Shown piece by piece: positions 419 through 58,900 of a stretch of 64,000 nt of DNA; position 1 is the stretch's first letter; each line of letters opens with the position of its first letter. The notes under the pieces are model-generated. The model ran no database searches. It was not told where the DNA came from and saw only the letters and a program-made list of their open reading frames with translations. Location: positions 75,223,022 to 75,287,021 of the forward strand of contig OV121081.1 of assembly GCA_921293015.1 (NCBI GenBank), written 5' to 3'. Source of the DNA: Phorcus lineatus (taxonomy: Eukaryota > Mollusca > Gastropoda > Trochida > Trochidae). The translations under genes were made by a program, and so were the position numbers.

Positions 419-3400
419 AAATAATTCATAATGATAAGTTAATGAAATGCCACAACAGCAATAACGTAAACATTAATGGATTTCTGAATCTTTCGTCTCC
501 AAATTCAACTTCGAAACTCATAATACGTCAAAATTCTAAGACCTCCTGGTCTTAAATAGTAGGCGGACCTGCGGTCCGACCCACAGATTGAACAACTTAA
601 TTTATATTATTTTCGAAACTTTCTTGCAAGATGTCAAAAGATAGGTAAGATACTTTTTCAAATTCATTCTAGATCAGATGCTGGATAATACTCAAAGGTG
701 TCAATGTCATATCACTTTACAGCAAGAATTCTCACGAAATGTGTATGGAAGCGCTTGGATACTAGATTGACCAACACACTGAATATCTTAACGATAGATT
801 TGACAAATTATTTATCATTGAATAAGCTAAATTCATCTTGGAAGCAACATCTTCAAGTTTAGTGATACTCCTTTAATACAAATATCAAAGACTGTTATGT
901 GAACGGGCAACTGACTTCAGCTAAATAATATAAGAAGCCCAGTTACTTTATACAGGGATATTTTGGCATGCGTTATCTTTGCACTTCCTAATCATCAAGT
1001 AAAGACTTAAGTGAATCCGTACTCACATTTAGGTTTTCAAATCGCACCAATGATTTTTATTTCGAATTGAAAATTAAATAGATCAATGAAATGCAGGAGA
1101 GGTTTATTGGTTTTGAAAACCGTCGCTAGTGCAAGGTACCATCCATTAACATTCTTGAGTCAATGAGGGAGCTGTTTGAGGTAGAAAAAATTCAATGAAT
1201 TATGCAATACACAAGTTATCGATATGCATGTAGCAAGTTCTAAATTGAGAAGGGACTTAGGGATTCGTCAAATCAATCACTGTTTAAAATGTATTCCCAG
1301 TACGCTCAGACTATGCCTAGGGTTTGTTGTATTCATGTCGTGTTTTCAATCACAAGCATCTAGATATGATAAAAGCACTTTATATAATAGAGGTTTGACA
1401 TTAGACGTCCATGCTAGGAGTTAAGCATGGTAGAATGGGTCAAGGTCAGTTCGTCTGTGCGTCATTGAAGTTATGTAGCTATATTCTTACTTGCAAGGTC
1501 TTTGTTCTTTGTCTAGTTCTTTGGAATTATTTGTAATAATATTTCAATGTATCAGCATAAATTCAATTTTTCTTTGTTAGAAAGAGAAATAATCACTGCT
1601 TGGACAAGAGTTTTGGTCGAGAAAGCGAAATCAGAAACTTCAGGTTTAAAAATATACACCTCATATTTCGGCGTTTACAAAAAATTTACATCAAGATAAT
1701 TTCATCACTGTAGTATAGCGAAGAGTTGCATTTTTGTTTAAAGCTTTATTGATATTGTTTATACTTGGAAGCTATGTTGTTTGGTGCCACATGAGTGATG
1801 CGGCACTAAGGAAGCGTTTTTGTTCTTGCATGCAGCTTTTCAAAACATAAGTTGTGCCCCTTGCCTTGTATCCTAGGTGGCGTCGTAGTTTGTTGTTCGC
1901 TCTGACACGTTCACACACATATACAACGAATTTATAGATTATTAAGTAATTGGTGTTTGTTTAAAATGCTCATTCGTGAGTTATCATTTATCTGCATTGA
2001 AGTATGATCAATATCGAACCACAACTTTTTCGACCTCGCATTTAAGCTGTTACAGTTCAGTGCAATATTGATTATTACATATTATGGGCAAATAAACATC
2101 TCCCATGGACTATTCTTACGCCAGCTCCAAGGACTTGCAAAGATAGGCCTTGCCGCATTTCCCGTACATTTCTGTGCTTGTCGCCAAGGCTGCTGCGACG
2201 GATCACGATGGTCCAATGAAAAATCCTTTGATTCATTTGCATTCAAAACACGAATTTTTACTGGTTGGTAGCAAGGTTTAAATTATACAGTTATAGAGAC
2301 TGGTGAAATTTAAAGCCATGCGGGTGAAGATGTATGCAAAAGGTTGTTAACTTTAATAAAAAAATATTTAAGAACTTGAACAATTGAATTTTTTAATGTT
2401 ATGCATGCTATACAGCGTAGTGACCTTTTCTGGTTCGTGAATAATTTATGATCCACTTTTGATTTTAACCTGAATCATGTTTGTACATTTTGATGAAAGT
2501 CAGATTATTTGGTAAAACCGATGCGTTATTGATTTAGTATGACGTCTCTGGGTTTTTAAGCTAAAGGCAAGACGAATGTATACAGAATAGTAAACAAATT
2601 GTATCGTGGTAGCATTTTCAAACATCGAAACGAGTGAATAGAATGAGAATCAGATTAACAATTGTGAGTATTTGTCCTTCACATCCTTCTGTGCACATAC
2701 ATATACTTATACTTGTACTTTTTGATTAAATGTATATAATTTATTTCACTGAGCATATTCCGAAGTGACATTGTTTTTGTATAACGGTCCTGTGCTGTTA
2801 TTGGTTGTTTTCTAACATTGAGTTAAAACGTTATTGAATTCGATTTGTATTGCTATATATTGTATGAGATTTCCTCATTTAAGTTTTTATTAGGTGTTTC
2901 AGATGATACCATGCATAGCAAAGATAAAGCTAGCTTCCCTAAACTGACATTCTTGTTAATCAGGTTTGTACGGATTTGGTCTTTATGACTAAGCTCTCTT
3001 ATATTTCAGACATTGATTAAACGATTCCATTCTAATAAATAACACTAGAAATAGCTTTTCAATAAAAGTTAACACTTTATTGACAGTTTCCGATCATAAC
3101 TTGTACTAAGAAACTGTAATGACAACACCATATATAATGGCAGATTAATTACATACCAAATTGATATATGTCAATAAAGAAATGACAGAACTGAAACAAG
3201 ACTATAGGCTCTATAATTTAATGTGACAAGTAAAATTTCTTATTTTGATTTCACAATACTAACGTAACTTGTCTAATTTTATTTGTCTTTAATAACAACG
3301 TTTTTAAATTAAGATCAGTGAAATCCAATAATGACGTGGTGTGATTTATTAAGGTTTCAATAGTCAAGTGTTAATCAAACCGAAATTGATAATTTCTTAT

Positions 3401-14900: not shown

Positions 14901-16869
14901 TTGATGGAAAAAGGTATATAACTTTACACACTCTATTATTCTGTTGTGAAATAAAACCCTTACAACCAGACACATTGCAATACATAAATGCAAATTATTG
15001 GTCATGCAGACATTAAGTGTTGACTTTATTAGTTCTGCCTAATGAAATGCCAGTACATCAGTGGTCTTCACTAAAATAGTTACAGAGAAAGTAATAAAAG
15101 AATAAGAATCAATATTATTATTCATTAACTACTTGAAAGCTGAGTTTGTTTCGGAATAAGTTTTGAATAGTTCAAATAATTCAAATTTAATCGTTTGGAG
15201 GCAAATTAAAAATTGGCTAACGTTCTCTCTTTTTGTAATTGAAACACATTGTTTATTGTTAACTCAAAATTCAGAATTTGAAATGTTAACGGCTTTATAC
15301 TGGAGTTCTCTCCTTCAATATTTATTTTTAAAATCGTTAGAACTGTTTTCATTTGAAAGGACATGTAGAACTATTTTACATTTTTATTTAGAAAGCAAAT
15401 AAAAATCCAGCTTTAAGTTAGCTCCTTCCAATTACTGATCAAACGACTAGGAGAGGATTGGATCCACTCGGAGAAACAAACTTGGTTACACAAATGATAC
15501 TTGAAGACAAAAAGGTAAGCAGCTATTTTCAAGATGCAATCTTAAATAGATTTTTAAATGTTTTATGAATAATTGTGTTTAGAAGAAGCGTTTAGTTCTT
15601 AAGTAAGATTAGTGTTGACAAGTGTCAAGAAGGGAGTTCCTTAATAACACGAATGACTACTACGAATCAATATCAAACGTTTTCCTTGTTTATGTTTTCA
15701 AACTGCATCATATTATCAATTACAACTATCAAACGTTTCACAGAATTGTAGAGCAATACTGGACATGATCTCCTGATTGTGTTAACCTTGATAAGGGTGA
15801 TACCAACCTTTTATTAATTTCAAAAGAAGAGTTATACTTTTTACATCACAGGTCTTTGAAAACAAGTTTTAGTTGGACGTCACAAAATTAAAGTATATTG
15901 ATTCAGCAATCTTACCTCCTAAACTATTTCTACTTTCTAAAAACAGTACGGAGTCTGCGATTGCGACTGTTGACAGTTGAACGTGGAAGCTTATCTATAA
16001 CAGGATGTTGCAAGTTTTAAGCGACACTATGAAGAACCTCTTTCAGAACTATTATTACAACTCTCTGTATCGTTTAGGTGTTCACTTTAATGGGTATTAT
16101 CAAAAGTTTAAAATGAACTGTTTAATCATATTCTATAACTCTATATTCTAAATTGACCTGATGAACTGAACAAACTCTTTGGTAAGATGAAACAGAGATG
16201 CAATGCAAGGCTGCCTTAGAGTAGCGCCTCCTTCAGGTTATGGAAAGTGTTAATCGGACAAATGAAGAATTTCACTGTTCCTCTTTGTAAATGGGTTTTC
16301 TAGGTTTCTTTCTTCAAAAATCAAAGGTCGGAAGTGTATAAAAGAATGGTGTTTAACCTTTGTGTTTAAAACAATTGCTGGAAACATTATTCTTCTGAAA
16401 CATAACTGTAAAAGCAAGTACATCAAACAACACAGCAACTTTACAATGAAAGAAAACTTAGATCATGGGCCACGATTGAAATAAGACCTAATTAACCACC
16501 AGCTGTTTCATGTTACATCGGAGAGAAACCCATAAGAGAAAACAAAGGTTACATTTATTATTCTAATTTTGCATTTACCCTTTCATACTCAGGAGATCAT
16601 GAGCACACACATCTAATAACTTAGTGAAAAGCCTTTGCATCTTTTACCGATTTGGAAGTTTGATTGTCTCATGACTTGATTGTAAAACATGGAGAACCTG
16701 TCGACCTATGTGGGAACATATTTACAACACAAAGGCATTCCATGAGGTTCATTGATACAATTCACACTCTTCAGTAGAATATAAACGATAGTTATGCACT
16801 TGATAACTGTGTTATTAAACACCAGATAGCATTGACCACTTCTCATGCAAGAGGACGTTATTATCCATT
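5949..16869. other. long AT-rich stretch, no gene or element recognised
   Basis: About 11 kb without a recognisable gene. The frames here (for example 6844-7119 +, 7161-7529 - and 11744-12082 +) show no domain I can name and sit in unbiased AT-rich sequence. One small feature is a tandem 20-bp duplication at 7021-7060 (CTGGATCCACACAATTAATn twice, one mismatch). It may be a large intron or intergenic DNA. Confidence 0.6.
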
Positions 16870-26260: not shown

Positions 26261-27632
26261 CTTAACAGCAAAAGAAACGCGAGACATCTCTTATTTAAAG
26301 TATGTTTTTACTTTAATTCATAAGTTAAACAAAAGTAAGAATAGAATTCGATCCTTTACAGTTAACACTTTGACAACAGTCCAACTGGACTCCAAAGATG
26401 TCTTTTACTGGGTGGATCTGTCACATAGGGGGCGTTGCAATGTCAGTACCGGTATGCCCTCCTTGCTTGTTCAGAACAGCCATACAACATCAATACGTGA
26501 AGTTAATGAGCCGTTTAACAAAAGCCCTTGGCACCTGCGCGTGAACCCTGAGGAAAGCTGCTTCCAGTTCAGCACGAGTTATCGGCCTTGGAACCACCTG
26601 ATTCAAACGTCTCTGGATTTTATCCCACAGATGTTGAATTGGGTTTAAATCTGGACTCAGGGTCGGCCATTGAATTGTTCTGATGTTGTGTTGGCGTAAA
26701 ACGTCGGTAAAAGTCGAGCAAAGAAAAGCACGATGTTAGGTCTGAGGATCTGGTCAATGTACCGTTGTGCTGTTATGCCATTTCCTTGCCCTGCACCAAG
26801 ATTTTGGAAGACGTGGGGTCCAATCCTCTGATTCAGGCCTAAAGCAGCCCACACAATGATGCTCTGACTAGCCCATGCGTCTCTTTCCATCACACAATCA
26901 TCTCTTAAACGTTCACCCCTCCTAAGCCACACTCTCTACCTTCCATCCAAGGTTGAAACGCAGTATCTGCTTTCATCCAAGAAGATTATGGACCTCCATT
27001 GTTGCTGACGCCAATGTCGGTTTTGTGTAGCCCACTGCATTCGTGCTTGTCGGTGACGTGCGGGGAGATTAGGACGTTGAGCAGGACGTAGGCAACGAAG
27101 ATTTTCGACTGCTAGGCGACGTCTTACCATGTCACTACTTATGGGCTGTTGTCGAGTGCCAACGGTCTGACGAGCCGTTACGGTGGCTGGTCTGAAGCGA
27201 TCCTGATGATGTTGCCGAACAATGTGGCAATCCTGCCTGGGAGTGTTCACTCGGGGGCGTCCACTACGGACCCTGTCTGCAGTGCTGTTGGTGGCGTTGT
27301 AGCGTTGCTGAAGACGATGGATAGTGCTGACATAAACAGTAGCAACCACCTGAGCACACTGACCGGCTATCACATTAACACATTTTATACCCATAGCCTT
27401 CAAGCAAAGCAGTTTGGTGTGCCCGAGCGATGACTGCAACATCTACCCATGGCCCTCAGCATTGTTGCGTTTGAGGGAGTTAATTTATCTAACATTGTAA
27501 GGTTACCTGCATCTGTTATCGCAGACATGAATATGTCATGAGTTATTAGCGTTTTGATTCCAGATTTAAAAAATACAGAAATTTTAGTTATAAATTGACC
27601 TCTGAAATTTTCGCGTTTCTTTTGCTGTTAAG
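26261..27632 (-). mobile_element. Tc1-like transposon, full length but inactive
   Basis: Terminal inverted repeats CTTAACAGCAAAAGAAACGC (left, from 26261) and the exact complement (right, ending 27632) bound a 1372-bp element. Both ends are followed outward by TA, the Tc1/mariner target duplication, within a TATA context on each side. Only about 22 bp of the termini match. The single interior gene is a broken DD34E-type transposase on the minus strand. Confidence 0.94.
26510..27464 (-). pseudogene. Tc1-like DD34E transposase pseudogene
   Basis: The family encodes an HTH DNA-binding half and a DDE nuclease half that cuts and pastes the element. Here the paired-type HTH region ends in RVRSGRPRVNTPRQD (about a third of the way in), followed by the first catalytic aspartate in FLDESRY. 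Then comes an in-frame TAG at 26936-26938, where relatives have Gln (DGRQRVW). Reading continues in the same frame (VWLRRGERL, SQSIIVWAAL, AQRYIDQILRP). The segment that should hold the second aspartate (QQDNARPH in relatives) is deleted after FFAR near 26710. The frame resumes shifted (RQHNIRTIQWPTLSPDLNP), and the catalytic Glu of NPIEHLWD is Gln (NPIQHLWD). A frameshift also lies near the N terminus (about 27445). Loss of two of three catalytic residues makes it dead. Confidence 0.94.
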
Positions 27633-29018: not shown

Positions 29019-29282
29019 ACTTTTTTTCACGTTTACATATTTTCAAGAAATATTTTACATCTAAAGCGCCATTGTAATGAAAGTTCCAAAATTCAGAATT
29101 TCAATACTATGTATATTTATTTATTTCAAATTATCTGTTAACAAAATGGTAGATGTTAGCCCGAAATTTAATGTTTGCATATTCATTATAAATAAACTGA
29201 ACTTGCTAGACCTTTTTTTTAACTATTGAATGTTAAGAGGAATTTACCAATCGTGTACATTACATTAGCCTTTAGCATATAT

Positions 29283-29295
29283 AATATACATATAC

Positions 29296-29366
<71 letters not shown>
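29283..29366. repeat. (TA)n array at the 3' edge of the Penelope-like element
   Basis: An uninterrupted TA dinucleotide run with a few TATACA variants at its left end. It creates a spurious poly-(Tyr-Ile) frame on the plus strand. It borders the retroelement directly. Confidence 0.93.
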
Positions 29367-29368
<2 letters not shown>

Positions 29369-29440
29369 TGTAAAAGTTAAATGTTCATGGTTTATGTATC
29401 AAATATTCTTTAAAAATAACAAACTGAAGATTGGTCTTCA

Positions 29441-29495
29441 TATAAGTTCATTACCAACCGGTTTCACAATATAGTGATCATCAGGGTAACTTATA
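29441..29495 (-). ncRNA. candidate hammerhead ribozyme of the Penelope-like element
   Basis: On the minus strand the two invariant core blocks appear in order: CTGATGA (29484-29478) and GAAAC (29465-29461). The core is enclosed by a stem I of TTACC/GGTAA plus an outer TATAAG/CTTATA, with a 4-nt bulge on one side. Stem III would be the minimal type, GAAAC-CG-GTT, with cleavage after the last T of GTT. Very short stem III hammerheads are characteristic of Penelope-like elements. The weak point is stem II: TCACTATATTGT pairs poorly as written, although CAC/GTG can form if one core position is shifted. Activity is therefore uncertain. Confidence 0.6.
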
Positions 29496-29613
29496 CATTG
29501 TGTTGCTAATGGTATAGCGTTAACAATGGCAAGGGACGTAATTCATGACGTCATATGCATACCTCTAAAATATATATAGTAAATGCGACGTCAACATGAT
29601 TTAATATCAGTTA

Positions 29614-31912: not shown

Positions 31913-31971
<59 letters not shown>
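31913..31971. repeat. (TA)n array at the 5' edge of the Penelope-like element
   Basis: A pure TA run of nearly 60 bp abuts the 5'-truncated end. Together with the array on the other side it brackets the insertion. Confidence 0.93.
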
Positions 31972-41070: not shown

Positions 41071-43165
41071 CCCTCCCGATGCATTGACATTTTACTGTGC
41101 TTTGGTGCTTCCCTGGGCCTCATGGGCCCCGGCATATCATTCGTTTCTATTTCGGACCCCTTTGAACTGGCTATGAGGCTGTGATATCTTATGAACAATT
41201 CATTGCAACCATGGAGCAGCTGAGAATGAAATTTGATCTGATTGGGTAAGTATGTTCAGTTCCGTCGAGATTTTTTGTCTTTCTTCGTACTGCAGATGCA
41301 ACATCTACGTCGTTTTCCGAGATCACTTAGATCCGGATCATCTGACAGAACATCCTTCACAATGTCCTGGAGCTGACGCCTTTTCGACATTCCCTTCCTC
41401 CTGCTGACAAGAGGATGCATCAGAGCTTCAGCAATGGCTTGTAGAAACTCACGTCTAGGAACTCCAGCTGATACATTCCACTGAGGGAAATTGTTCCATG
41501 CTGTGTAGGATGCAATGCCGGCGACATCTAGCATGTTAGTAAACATCACCATCGGCCATCTCCTGCTCATCCGTTGTGTTGAATATCCATGGGCCATCTG
41601 ATCCATTGTATCAACTGCTCCTTTTATTTGTTGTAGTAGAGAACTATGTCTGGCTTCTTCTTTTGAGAACCATCAACGTCAGCTGTCTTGTGCATTTTGC
41701 TGAGCAGAGTGACACTCTTGGACCTCTTGCATTGGTGACTGACAATAGTTGTCTTGTCTTGAAATGCAAAGACATAATCGTGAACACCTCTCGCTGTCTT
41801 GGTGCTGAATGCGGCAGGTAAAAAACGCTTGTTCTGTCTGACAGTGCCAACCAAAGTGAGACCATTAGAAATAAGTTCCATGGTCAGGAAAGAATTTGTA
41901 TGCTGTGATGTTACGATTTGAGTGAATGTAAGGCCTGCAGAGTTCCAATGTAATACTTCTACCCAGTCCAACGTGGGCACTTCTGCCTTCCTTTCCGAGA
42001 TATGACATGGAAGGAGATAACAGTTGCTAGAGTCAACTAACCAGAACAGTTTGAGTCAATATTTGTCGGGTTTGGCTTGAATATAATAAATAAAGTAACA
42101 TCTGCCACGAAATGGGACCAGCTGTTCATCAACAGTAAGGTTGTCTCCGGGTACGTAATATCGACCCAAACATGTTTGGAACTCCTCCCTAATCTCATGG
42201 ATCGGTGCCAGCTTGTCCTTCTGACGCCGTTGACTTCTGGTCTCTTTGTCATCAAAACGCTGTATACTCAAGAGATCCTTGAATCGACGTTGAGACATTG
42301 TTGCTCGTACAAAAGATATTCCGTATTGTTTGCTCCACAATACATCAGTGTCAACCATATTTATTTTGAGATGTCCAAGAGTCAGTAATATTTCTACAAG
42401 AGCCGACAATTCTATCTCATCTGTCTCTGCCCATTCCTGGGTATCTTTCCCTTTTTCTTTCATCACTCTCCTCCCTTCCTTATTTTTAAAGGTGACAATT
42501 TTTTAGTGATATTTTTGGTGATATACAGTTGAAACATGTATCTGTCTCATTGATGATATGATCTGCATGTATAACCTTCTGAAAAGGACCTTGAATGATG
42601 TTGCGTTGCGGAGTTCGAGATTGTGCTGGTGGGTGGTAGACCATTTGCCTTCTTTGCCGACAAAAATGTCATGATCATCAGCGTTATCATCAACATCAGA
42701 TGATGTTAATTCAGAACTATCTGAAGATGTATTATTGTCAGAAGCATCCAGAGGTAGATAGTCAATATCTGAACCACTTCCTTCATCAAATGCTATCCCT
42801 AGCAGACATCAAAACCTTTGTGCAAGTTACCCAAAGGCTTGGTATTTTTCTTTCGATATTTCATCTTGGATTGCTAGGACCACGTGCCACTTGCAGGCTA
42901 TATCAACAAATCTTAAAGATGCTCAAGTATTGAAAGCAATGACCTTGGGCCTCAGAGGCCCGGGGATGCACTTACTGACTGTGGATTTTAGAATTAACAT
43001 AATATTTTTTATTTTTTTCTTCAAGAGTAGATTATGTTTGATTAAACCCACATTGGGGTTTGGAAGATTACATAGAGTTATGTTATTTTATTCAAGATTT
43101 AACCAGTTTTACAGACCTCCAAAGTGGCCATCGGGCCTGTGAGGCCCCAGGTAGCATCGGGAGGG
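41071..43165 (-). mobile_element. piggyBac-family transposon, complete ends with TTAA duplication
   Basis: The element is bounded by TTAA at 41067-41070 and 43166-43169, the piggyBac target site. Its ends CCCTCCCGATGC and GCATCGGGAGGG are a perfect 12-bp inverted repeat. Length is 2095 bp. Subterminal GC-rich palindromic blocks occur near both ends and once inside: GGGCCTCATGGGCCCCGG at about 41115, GGGCCTCAGAGGCCCGGGG at about 42949 and GGGCCTGTGAGGCCCC at about 43133. These stand out from the AT-rich surroundings and are likely transposase-binding repeats. The interior holds one minus-strand transposase, now broken. Confidence 0.95.
41256..42864 (-). pseudogene. piggyBac transposase pseudogene
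   Basis: The family excises elements precisely at TTAA using a DDD nuclease. From the minus-strand N terminus there is an acidic leader (SSDVDDNADDHD, then GKEGKWSTT) near 42600-42720. The catalytic domain follows: DKLAPIHEIREEFQTC, PGDNLTVDEQLVPFRGRCYF (holding the first catalytic Asp) and AKPDKY. An in-frame TGA stands where relatives have Gly, and reading continues LKLFWLVDSSNCY. The second Asp region (DNFFTS in relatives) is frameshifted and appears mutated (NITAYKFFPDHG). The C-terminal part is recognisable: GLTLVGTVRQNKRFLP, KKPDIVLYYNK, DQMAHGYSTQRMSRRWP, MLDVAGIASYTAWN and the start of a Cys-rich zinc motif CCICSTKKDKK. Further shifts lie near 42470-42560 and 42800. It cannot make an active enzyme. 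Confidence 0.93.
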
Positions 43166-55256: not shown

Positions 55257-55922
55257 TACGAGGGGAAGTAAATAAGTTCATAGAAGTGGATATGAAACAG
55301 TAGCCGATAGTTGTGATAAAGAATATGATCTCCCTGGACTTTGCCAATTTGTTTTGAGACTATGTATGCCCTTGCTCTGACTGGCCCCTCAGGCACGCCC
55401 CAGTAGCTGTCTTCAGTTCATCATCATTGCCATGGTGAATCCACGCTTCATACCTTGTTACTAGACGGGCATGAAAGTTACTGGGATCAGCATTGTTAAT
55501 GTCCAAGAGCTTAATACTGGACTGAAGTCTCGCTCTTGTGCATTTAAGTTTCGTGGTAACAAACTTGCTGATACCTAGGACATGTGCAAATGCTCATGAA
55601 TTATGGTGCAAACACTTCCATGCGAAATGCCACACTCTGAAGGCATCTCGTCCACGTTTATTATACGATCAGATATGATGAAGCCCTGGATCCATGAAAC
55701 CATATCATCTGTAAAAACTTCAACAGGCCTCTCTGACCATGGGTCATGGTCCAAGGAAGTGCGACCCTGCTTAAATTCCGCTGACCATTTTTCAACAGTG
55801 GAATATTGAGGGGCTTCTTTCCCATACTTATTGGTCATATGTTTATGTATTTCGGTCGCATCTACCCCTTCTTTCGTGAGAAAATTGATAACTGCACGAT
55901 GCACAGTTTTTAAACTTTCCAT
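55257..55922 (-). pseudogene. mariner transposase remnant with central deletion
   Basis: The minus-strand N-terminal half is open: it starts MESLKTVHRAVINFLTKEGV and has the HTH region YSTVEKWSAEFKQGRTSLD, then ISHGSVCTIIHEHLHMS. After a TAG stop and a frameshift, NADPSNFHARLVTRYEAWIH appears, where relatives have VTGDESW, so the first catalytic Asp is lost (Tyr). The rest of the DDE domain is missing, and a C-terminal block KGIHSLKTNWQ follows. TACGAGGGGAAGTAAATAAG at 55257 resembles a mariner terminal repeat; the matching upstream end was not found. The protein belongs to the mariner HTH plus DD34D class and is inactive. Confidence 0.85.
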
Positions 55923-58900
55923 GAATACAGGAGGGAACCTATGTTCAACAGGCTGTAAATCTCAAGTAAATTATCGGGAGGGTTGTTTATGTCTGTCAAC
56001 TGTCGTCAGATGGCCTATTTAAAAAATGACAACAACGATTATGTCTTCGGGGGTGTATCAATACTAACCTTTAAGAACCTACTGACTTCCATGCGTATTT
56101 ATTCTCATCTCAACATTCATGTTTTCTCTTTTTATGTCTTAAGAATTCCTGCTATCCTTGAGCAAAGTAACAAACCCTCTAAAGAGTATGTGATATCATC
56201 TTGTTATAGACAGAAGATAAAAAAGGTGTTCATCAAAAACAATTAGAACGAATAATGCCTGCAGTGAATCTCAGCATTGGTCAATAAATTATTTGGAGTA
56301 TCGGAAGCCAATAGAATTCTTTGTATTTTACCCATTGCTTAACACAAGGTTTGATTGATCAGATTATCAATATTTCAAACACAAATAAATACAATGCTTA
56401 TAGCTTTGTTTGAAAAGTCATTACACAATCTTACAATGTCATCTACTTTTGTTTAAATAAATCGTGTTGATACTGAAATAACAACGGTCTCCTCAACTCT
56501 ACACTATTCATGACTTCGTCCTTTGTGTGAATAGCAGGTCTGATTTCATTTTGGAAAACAGTAGAATAGCATATTACCGCAATGCTTTTTGAAAAGTTAA
56601 TAAGTGAAAGTGAGAACATCAATCACAATTCATTTCCTTTTCATCGATTACGTTGTGATGACTTCGGCAAAAAACAAAAAAATTCAGGGAAAAGACAGTT
56701 TATCTTGCCCTCGTTTTATTAATTTTCTAATTATCGAGCTTTGGCGATAGACTGTCATAATAAATATAACGAAGAAAATCTGCAAGTAATAAGTTGATTA
56801 TTGAATTTATTGCCCATATCTTGACCCAACCATATTACATATTCGGTCAGTTATTCTGAAGTAGTCATGCACTTTAATAACAATCACAAACATGTGTACC
56901 TGCAGCCTTCACAATCTGATTCGAAAGACCTTTTATATTGTGTCTTTAGAAGTTAGCAACACATTTATCTTGCATTCACCATTTCTCAACCAAAGAACTA
57001 TCTAGATGATGTGGAATGTAGCTGACAGGGGCAATACACTGTGAAGTTTGTGGAAAACATTGTGAAATAACAATTAGGCTTTGAATATTTTGCAAGCGAA
57101 GCGTATTTAACTTCGACAGGAACAACATTTGGAGTTTGTGAAAGAACGCCACGTGATGACCGTGTTTTTTCCCTGAACGCCCTGAGGAATAACATCAGAA
57201 ATGCGACCAAGCGTGGTCACTCATTTACACAAATTATGATTTAGTATGTGTTCAAATAAATACTTTTTGTTAAGGACTGACAGATAAATCAATTATCGCA
57301 TAACAACACATTATCAAGCAAATTTAACTGCTAGTTTTGTACAAAGTTACAGACGACAGTTTTTACGAAAAATAAAGGCAACTCATTCCTTATAGTCTAT
57401 TATTGGCAACCGGGACAAGAAGTCTTTCTTACAAAGCAGACGATTCCAGGGATGGAAGTAAAAGACATCATCAAAACATTACTTTAAATGCATTGAATTT
57501 TTAAATAACTGTACTTGTGTTCCCTTAAATGCATGGATCACGTTTCATGGAACATTTTTGTTATGGGCAATTTCCGACAAAATATATTTTAAGAGAAATG
57601 TATTGAAATTGTGATAAATCACTCCTTCCCTTACGGCAAACAATTTCTACTGAATTGACAAATTGAAGAGACGCTATTTAAATGATATCTTACAGAGGTG
57701 TTGTTTTGTGCCAGACTTATGACGATGCTCATTACTCAAGGGAGTGTTCCTAGCACACTCTCCCTACCATTTAGAATAACCAGTAGGAAGTCAACATTTA
57801 GCTTTTCTCATCAATAGTGTAACATAATAAGTCACACGTCTTACAACATGTTTTAAATCAGTCCGATTAAAATGTACCATATTCGGAGGGATAAAATGTT
57901 GTCACATGTTTATTTTGACGGGGGGATCACATTATCTGATTTGGTTCCCTTGTGGGACTCGAAACAACACCCTCCGAGTCGGGCCACACCGCCAGCCATG
58001 GCCGTACTGGCAGTGAACCAAACCGCTAATTCCGCCAGCATTGGTCGTACCAGCAGCTAAGCAACTCGCCCTGTGGTACACATACACACACATGAAGATA
58101 ATTTAACAAGATCACAGACTGCAGCTGATTCTAAATGTGAGATGTCATGATATTTCTCCAATCTTTTGGATAAAACAATCTTAAGTCCATGAATCAAATT
58201 CCTATGTAAGAATTGGCAATACTTGAATTCATAATTCATGGAATCTAGGCGACTCTGTGACAGGGAAGGTCAGAATTTGAGGGATTTTCTTCCAAGAGTA
58301 AGACATCCAATTTGTCAATTGTCAAGCTGACACTATTCCTTATTTCTGGAATAATAAGACCCAGATAGGATAGTGAAGCTTCACCACACTGAAATGCGAC
58401 TTCAACGATAAATATAGTTAATACACGAAATACCAAAATATCACCAAGATATTTTGGTGTCGGTAGAAAAAATGTGTGTGTCCGCTTCAAACATGATGAC
58501 GCCTTTCTATAATAAAAACATTTATGAGATATTATTTTTCCATAATAAAAACATTTCCTACTTCTAGACTTTCTTGTTGGAGTATCAAGATGTGGAATAT
58601 GCATGTTCTCTCTGATTCGCTTGACATTTTCTTTTCACCAATACAGAATGCTGAACACTTATTTCGTTGTTATTTGATTGTTCGCTTGTGATTACTTACA
58701 CATATCTGTTGCTTATGAAATCAATTGTCATAATGTTATTAATAAATAGTTTAATATATAATAGTTTAATTAGATACAAATTCCCTCAATACTTTATTTT
58801 TTTTCTAGTTCCTTCAGACTATATTAATGTTTCCATTGCCCCTTGATAAGCCCATAATATAAACTGAAGGTGCTCAATTGTAGTAAAGAAAATCGATACA

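Follow-up and report, generated by a model that had tools for sequence, protein, structure and literature searches.

The window, by which is meant the whole 64-kb stretch of Phorcus lineatus DNA analysed here, carries a 5'-truncated Penelope-like element on its minus strand (Table 1). The open reading frame (ORF) of this element encodes 752 residues and combines a reverse transcriptase (RT) with a C-terminal GIY-YIG domain, as expected of Penelope-like elements. Searches of ORF sub-fragments against Pfam placed GIY-YIG above its cut-off (24.5 bits against 22.6, in a 253-aa fragment) and RVT_1 below its own (26.0 bits against 29.6), and the whole protein listed RVT_1 alone at E ≤ 0.1 (23.6 bits). 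The protein also aligns in a single frame with the ORF of a mussel Penelope element, L003, from residue 182 of the latter, with 205 of 568 aligned columns identical (36%). The Penelope-like assignment made in the initial annotation is therefore borne out. Among solved structures, no match was found at E ≤ 0.001.

The frame remains open through the TA tract as far as 31971, and the GTG start of the ORF is an artefact of truncation. Since the 5' part, about 180 residues of the ORF, is missing, the copy is probably dead as an element. The copy ends in an AT tract on one side and a TA tract on the other, and we infer that it is a recent 5'-truncated insertion into a TA microsatellite.

Other mobile sequences were identified in the window. 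For instance, a short stretch at 691-840 (+) shares 44% identity with Penelope RT residues 289-338 (E 2.6e-6) and is perhaps a remnant of another Penelope copy. Transposase pieces include one of the Tc1/mariner type (26936-27442, minus strand; HTH_Tnp_Tc3_2, 33.6 bits), a match to HTH_48, the HTH domain of the Mos1 transposase (55575-55961, minus strand; 38.2 bits), and two DDE_Tnp_1_7 pieces, presumably of the piggyBac type, at 42056-42502 (minus strand; 81.2 bits) and 41256-41672 (minus strand; 17.3 bits, under the cut-off of 22.4). A tRNA-like sequence at 22439-22373 on the minus strand (31.1 bits, cut-off 29), unseen by ARAGORN, is possibly the head of a SINE.

Table 1. Positions in the window of the Penelope-like element and of the parts of the hammerhead-like motif
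Feature	Positions	Strand	Basis or remark
TA tract, truncated 5' end of copy	31914..31970	.	Sequence
5'-truncated Penelope-like element, open frame, RT + C-terminal GIY-YIG, 752 aa	29614..31872	-	Pfam, alignment to L003 ORF
3' region of element, ORF stop to AT tract, contains motif	29369..29613	-	245 nt, sequence
Stem I outer, 5' strand UAUAAG	29490..29495	-	Pairs with 29441-29446, probabilities 0.77-0.93 (245-nt region)
Stem I inner, 5' strand UUACC	29485..29489	-	Pairs with 29451-29455
Catalytic core C3-A9, CUGAUGA	29478..29484	-	Sequence
Stem II region UCACUAUAUUGU, 12 nt	29466..29477	-	U-U mismatch, C-G, A-U; rival UCAC/GUGA hairpin extends into G12 and A13
Core G12 A13 A14 A15.1 (GAAA)	29462..29465	-	Sequence
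Stem III, loop-free palindrome ACCGGU	29457..29462	-	AACCGGUU, 8 nt, 29456-29463, in predicted dimer
H17 (U)	29456	-	Predicted cleavage 3' of it, between 29456 and 29455, from position relative to core
Stem I inner, 3' strand GGUAA	29451..29455	-	Sequence and pair probabilities
Stem I bulge UGAA, 4 nt	29447..29450	-	Sequence
Stem I outer, 3' strand CUUAUA	29441..29446	-	Sequence and pair probabilities
AT tract, 3' end of copy	29277..29366	.	Likely insertion target

Anatomy of a hammerhead-like motif 3' of the ORF

A hammerhead-like motif of 55 nt lies 118 nt past the stop codon of the Penelope-like ORF, in the kind of non-coding position expected of a Penelope hammerhead. On the minus strand it reads UAUAAG-UUACC-CUGAUGA-UCACUAUAUUGU-GAA-ACCGGU-U-GGUAA-UGAA-CUUAUA (29495-29441). 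CTGATGA and GAAAC follow one another in the order reported by the initial annotation, and the letters fit the hammerhead core CUGANGA ... GAAA with an A15.1-U16.1 pair and H17. The two-part stem I described there (TTACC/GGTAA and TATAAG/CTTATA, with a 4-nt bulge) was likewise located, closing the core with 5 and 6 bp. In the 245-nt region, seven of its 11 pairs exceed a probability of 0.9, and the inner pairs run, from the outside in, at 0.19, 0.66, 0.91, 0.92 and 0.91, the first two being the lowest of the stem.

The description of stem III held only in part. It is short, as had been noted, but the proposed 2-bp hairpin with a 2-nt loop fits less well than ACCGGU, a 6-nt palindrome that pairs without any loop, which is the form of stem III looked for in a minimal hammerhead of the Penelope type. 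Read in this way, stem III would confine any activity of the motif to a dimer.

Stem II is weak, in line with the initial annotation: a U-U mismatch is followed by just one C-G and one A-U pair. Its pairs in the hammerhead register have a probability of 0.0 in the 245-nt region, against 0.95-0.99 for the pairs of a rival UCAC/GUGA hairpin, which occupies core bases G12 and A13 and is present in the minimum-energy folds of both monomer and dimer. The monomer fold additionally pairs the core CUG with CGG. In the dimer, which holds two stems II, the predicted energy is -12.9 kcal/mol when the hammerhead stem II is formed, -14.7 kcal/mol when it is left out and -25.1 kcal/mol when the rival hairpins form instead. 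A stable stem II beside A9 and G12 was thus not found, as it costs 1.8 kcal/mol relative to none and the rivals are better by 12.2 kcal/mol.

Mussel Penelope relatives and covariance models

When genome contigs were scanned for a motif of the Penelope RT, a single contig, L003, was returned (a second pattern returned none). L003 sits in the genome record of a bacterium, the thiotrophic gill symbiont of the mussel Bathymodiolus brooksi. Its content points to mussel DNA, and its ends overlap by 77 nt, as expected of tandem copies. A protein search of the same genome gave four matches, three on the L003 contig and one on L007, and a pattern search gave four as well, among which the L007 site alone passes the descriptor (L004-L006, which are the L003 contig, and L030, which is the L007 site, were left out of the counts). 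L003 and the fragment L007 are Penelope sequences, most likely of the mussel host, within a bacterial record, a probable case of eukaryotic contamination of a public assembly.

Both carry hammerhead-like motifs past their stop codons. The L003 motif, spotted by eye, lies 417 nt past the stop at 1099-1137 (+) and reads GACA-UUGAUAAA-GUCCC-UCGGU-GGGAC-GAA-AAUU-U-UGUC. That of L007, found with a relaxed descriptor 207 nt past the stop at 1146-1108 (-), reads GACG-CUGAUGAA-GCUUG-UCGGU-CAAGC-GAA-AUAU-C-CGUC. All 12 pairs of the structure chosen for comparison (four in stem I, C3-G8, five in stem II, two in the palindrome) are kept between the two, seven of them changed on both sides, a result reached by 9 of 500 shuffles; slid structures reach at most 2. 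Since the descriptor had already demanded seven of these pairs in L007 (stem I, the core pair and the palindrome), the independent covariation is that of stem II, where five of five pairs are kept and four are changed on both sides; it concerns the two mussel sequences only, and the stems of the Phorcus motif are not part of it. As a separate observation, L003 carries U3 and A8 where C3 and G8 are usual, a natural variation that alters both partners and keeps them matched. A search of the available literature on hammerhead ribozymes with C3-G8 found no paper, although printed accounts may still exist.

The mussel motifs and the candidate share the same layout, namely stem I, a CUGAUGA-type core, stem II, GAA followed by palindrome and H17, and the closing strand of stem I, and all three lie 3' of a GIY-YIG-type ORF. 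The mussel motifs differ in that A9 is followed by a further A, stem II has 5 bp and the loop reads UCGGU; the candidate shows none of these features, and its palindrome has 6 nt against 4 nt in the mussel motifs (AAUU in L003, AUAU in L007). A MAFFT alignment of the three motifs was discarded because it placed the window sequence out of register.

The initial annotation had named the absence of a covariance-model hit as grounds for refutation. No Rfam hammerhead model matched the window at its gathering score, or the candidate at E ≤ 10 on 181 nt. However, both mussel Penelope motifs, with their covarying stem II, are missed by the same models, so the missing match is uninformative as a refutation, and it exposes a gap in what an Rfam scan can recover among Penelope hammerheads. 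The motif did draw a SNORD66 match of 13.4 bits (cut-off 32), rejected as chance, which we take to reflect its UGAUGA box.

A covariance model built from the L003 and L007 motifs (R1) gave the candidate 6.8 bits, under all 14 window sites listed at E ≤ 10 (9.8-14 bits). Within the 245-nt region the candidate ranked third, with two other sites slightly higher. There was accordingly no match to a model of other Penelope hammerheads, the model being narrow since it is built from two sequences that share the UCGGU loop. The R1 result counts against close kinship of the candidate with the mussel motifs.

Further searches returned no additional relatives. The relaxed descriptor found nothing in 20 stretches (200 kb) of the window's own genome (957,807,699 bases, 74 contigs) or in 48 viral loci (411,618 bases); as negative controls these are weak, because well under one chance match is expected in them. 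At E ≤ 1e-3 the 20 own-genome stretches held no Penelope match, and one 19-nt chance match (E 0.46) was all that the 3' region gave against them. Viral contigs yielded no confirmed Penelope relative: two weak loci, L001 (read in one frame) and L002, were dropped, and the 48 viral loci gave no tblastn match at E ≤ 1e-2. Phages gave no match at E ≤ 1e-5.

Origin of the weak stem II and alternative explanations

Taken together, the motif is fairly probably the hammerhead of a Penelope-like retroelement, lying in non-coding sequence 3' of the ORF, in a recent copy that is truncated at its 5' end and sits within a TA microsatellite, with a stem II whose weakness is probably a family trait. The core, the two-part stem I, the loop-free palindrome, the place 3' of the ORF and the layout shared with L003 and L007 are directly observed.

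The initial annotation had offered either a variant architecture or a decayed copy. If the copy had decayed, its family would have a normal ribozyme and stem II would have been lost by mutation after insertion, as could be suggested by the 5-bp stem II of L003 and L007 and by the loss of the 5' part from a copy that is probably dead. However, the ORF has no stop in 752 codons, and 5.5% of all substitutions in it would create one. Assuming neutral drift since insertion and an intact parent, divergence is bounded at 2.4% if indels are absent, at 0.9% if one accompanies every ten substitutions or at 0.5% if one accompanies every five, which corresponds to 0.58, 0.21 or 0.13 expected changes in the 24 bases of core and stem II. 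The core is also intact, as is stem I in both of its parts. Given an undamaged ORF that aligns with that of L003 in one frame, decay is an unlikely cause of the weak stem, and the variant half of the earlier proposal is the more likely one: the weakness probably belongs to the family rather than to this copy.

Chance resemblance, in which the core letters and a hairpin would have come together by accident in an AT-rich 3' region, was also weighed. The bare core CTGATGA..GAAAC says little by itself, as it occurs three times in the 64-kb window (0.36 expected), the other two cores, at 16158 (+) and 63441 (-), being without stems. Moreover, Rfam gives no hammerhead match and R1 fails to single the site out. 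The folds are similarly modest. The 55-nt motif folds moderately better than its shuffles (z -2.32; 6 of 200 as good), and the 245-nt region has a z-score of -1.77, with 9 of 200 shuffles folding at least as well. Against chance, once A15.1-U16.1, a non-G at position 17 and a stem I of at least 4 pairs are added to the core, the motif is the sole site in the window. In 200 Markov sequences, 0.3 such sites are expected, falling to 0.125 with a stem I of at least 5 pairs and to 0.05 when a 15.2-16.2 pair is added as well. When a loop-free palindrome (4 or 6 nt) is required as well, the expectation per 64 kb on both strands drops to 0.010 (at least 4 pairs) or 0.005 (at least 5), estimated from 600 Markov sequences with a criterion set post hoc, once the palindrome had been noticed; this criterion fits the published description (PMC6466107). 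The outer stem I, six more pairs across a loop of at most 4x4 nt, would arise by chance in 1.3% of cases with Watson-Crick pairs only and in 8% with G-U pairs. In addition, this sole site lies within the 245 nt that follow the one long Penelope ORF, and the two mussel Penelope sequences also have their motifs 3' of the ORF. A chance origin is accordingly judged distinctly unlikely.

A structured 3' element other than a ribozyme, such as a hairpin recognised by the RT or the endonuclease through UCAC/GUGA and the long stem I, would suit the persistence of that hairpin in both minimum-energy folds and its capture of G12 and A13, but it has no call for an intact CUGAUGA/GAAA core or for U17, and the L003 and L007 motifs keep the core letters between stem I and stem II, which makes it very improbable.

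With the hammerhead reading preferred, the status of the candidate can be described more closely. Since the core, stem I, palindrome and position were all found, while a stable stem II, tandem motifs and an R1 match were not, it is probably a variant that is built like Penelope hammerheads and derived from them, rather than an established active member of that group.

Predicted dimer action and comparison with known hammerheads

Penelope motifs are described as type I hammerheads of a minimal kind, possibly cleaving as dimers, and their in vivo activity and role are said to be still unknown (PMC7761336). Dimers of such hammerheads are reported to require a palindrome at stem III as well as tandem motifs (PMC6466107). 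Compared with the published minimal type I hammerheads of Penelope (Cervera and de la Pena 2014; Lunse et al. 2017), as citing papers describe them, the candidate shares the core letters, the lack of a proper helix III, the stem III palindrome and the non-coding place next to a Penelope ORF. It differs in its two-pair stem II behind a U-U mismatch, its 6-nt palindrome and its stem I of 5 and 6 bp with a 4-nt bulge. The hammerheads in those descriptions also occur in tandem, whereas the truncated copy has one motif. A second motif, as expected if both pseudo-LTRs were present, was not found by descriptor in the 64-kb window; as truncation has removed the 5' end of the copy, to about residue 182 of the ORF, any upstream motif has been lost.

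A weak stem II has parallels elsewhere. The metazoan retrozyme motif HHR_Amex2 likewise has a U-U mismatch at the base of helix II, and amphibian retrozyme motifs need dimers for efficient cleavage (PMC7229834). The retrozymes themselves are non-autonomous, short repeats with a length of about 170-400 nt (PMC7229834), whereas the candidate sits in an ORF-bearing Penelope copy. In avocado sunblotch viroid motifs, helices I and II are not clearly delimited (PMC6155905). Another comparison is the Anolis PAc, which is also a Penelope with GIY-YIG and a hammerhead, and whose motif cleaves only when protein is added (PMC11167929). Because PAc cleavage needed the protein of the element, a weak motif need not be dead. 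The PAc motif overlaps the start of its ORF (PMC11167929), whereas the sole remaining motif of the Phorcus copy is 3' of the ORF.

The unconstrained minimum-energy fold predicted for the homodimer has the double-hammerhead topology, with stems I formed between copies, AACCGGUU paired and CUGAUGA free. In the same predicted structure, the rival hairpin takes the place of stem II, and A14 and U17 form a pair. The energy of this dimer is unremarkable, since among 300 shuffles 15 attain -29.3 and 145 show an equal gain from dimerisation, and it was rejected as evidence on that account. In this prediction the topology alone is telling.

Cleavage of the candidate as a dimer is tentatively predicted and, in our estimate, somewhat doubtful. 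In such a mechanism, two copies, either tandem units of one transcript or two transcripts, would pair through the palindrome, and the 5' arm of one copy would pair with the 3' arm of the other. Cleavage would then follow on the 3' side of U17 (window base 29456). A stem II this weak would probably make cleavage slow, dimer-dependent or aided by the protein of the element. With its single motif, the truncated copy, if transcribed on its own, would need a second RNA in order to act.

A more elaborate version, which we regard as decidedly improbable, is a dimer-gated hammerhead with a lock, whose core would be hidden twice in a single RNA and freed by the pairing of two element RNAs. The lock would consist of CUG paired with the CGG of the palindrome, and of G12 and A13 held in UCAC/GUGA; dimerisation, with or without the element protein, would free CUGAUGA. 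A second unlocking step would be needed, because the predicted dimer frees CUGAUGA yet keeps G12 and A13 in the hairpin.

If such a lock were real, cleavage would not be constitutive and would instead report the presence of two element copies together, as in tandem Penelope transcripts. More generally, the combination of an intact core and a long stem I with almost no stem II in a young copy would show how minimal a stem II is needed by hammerheads that act as dimers.
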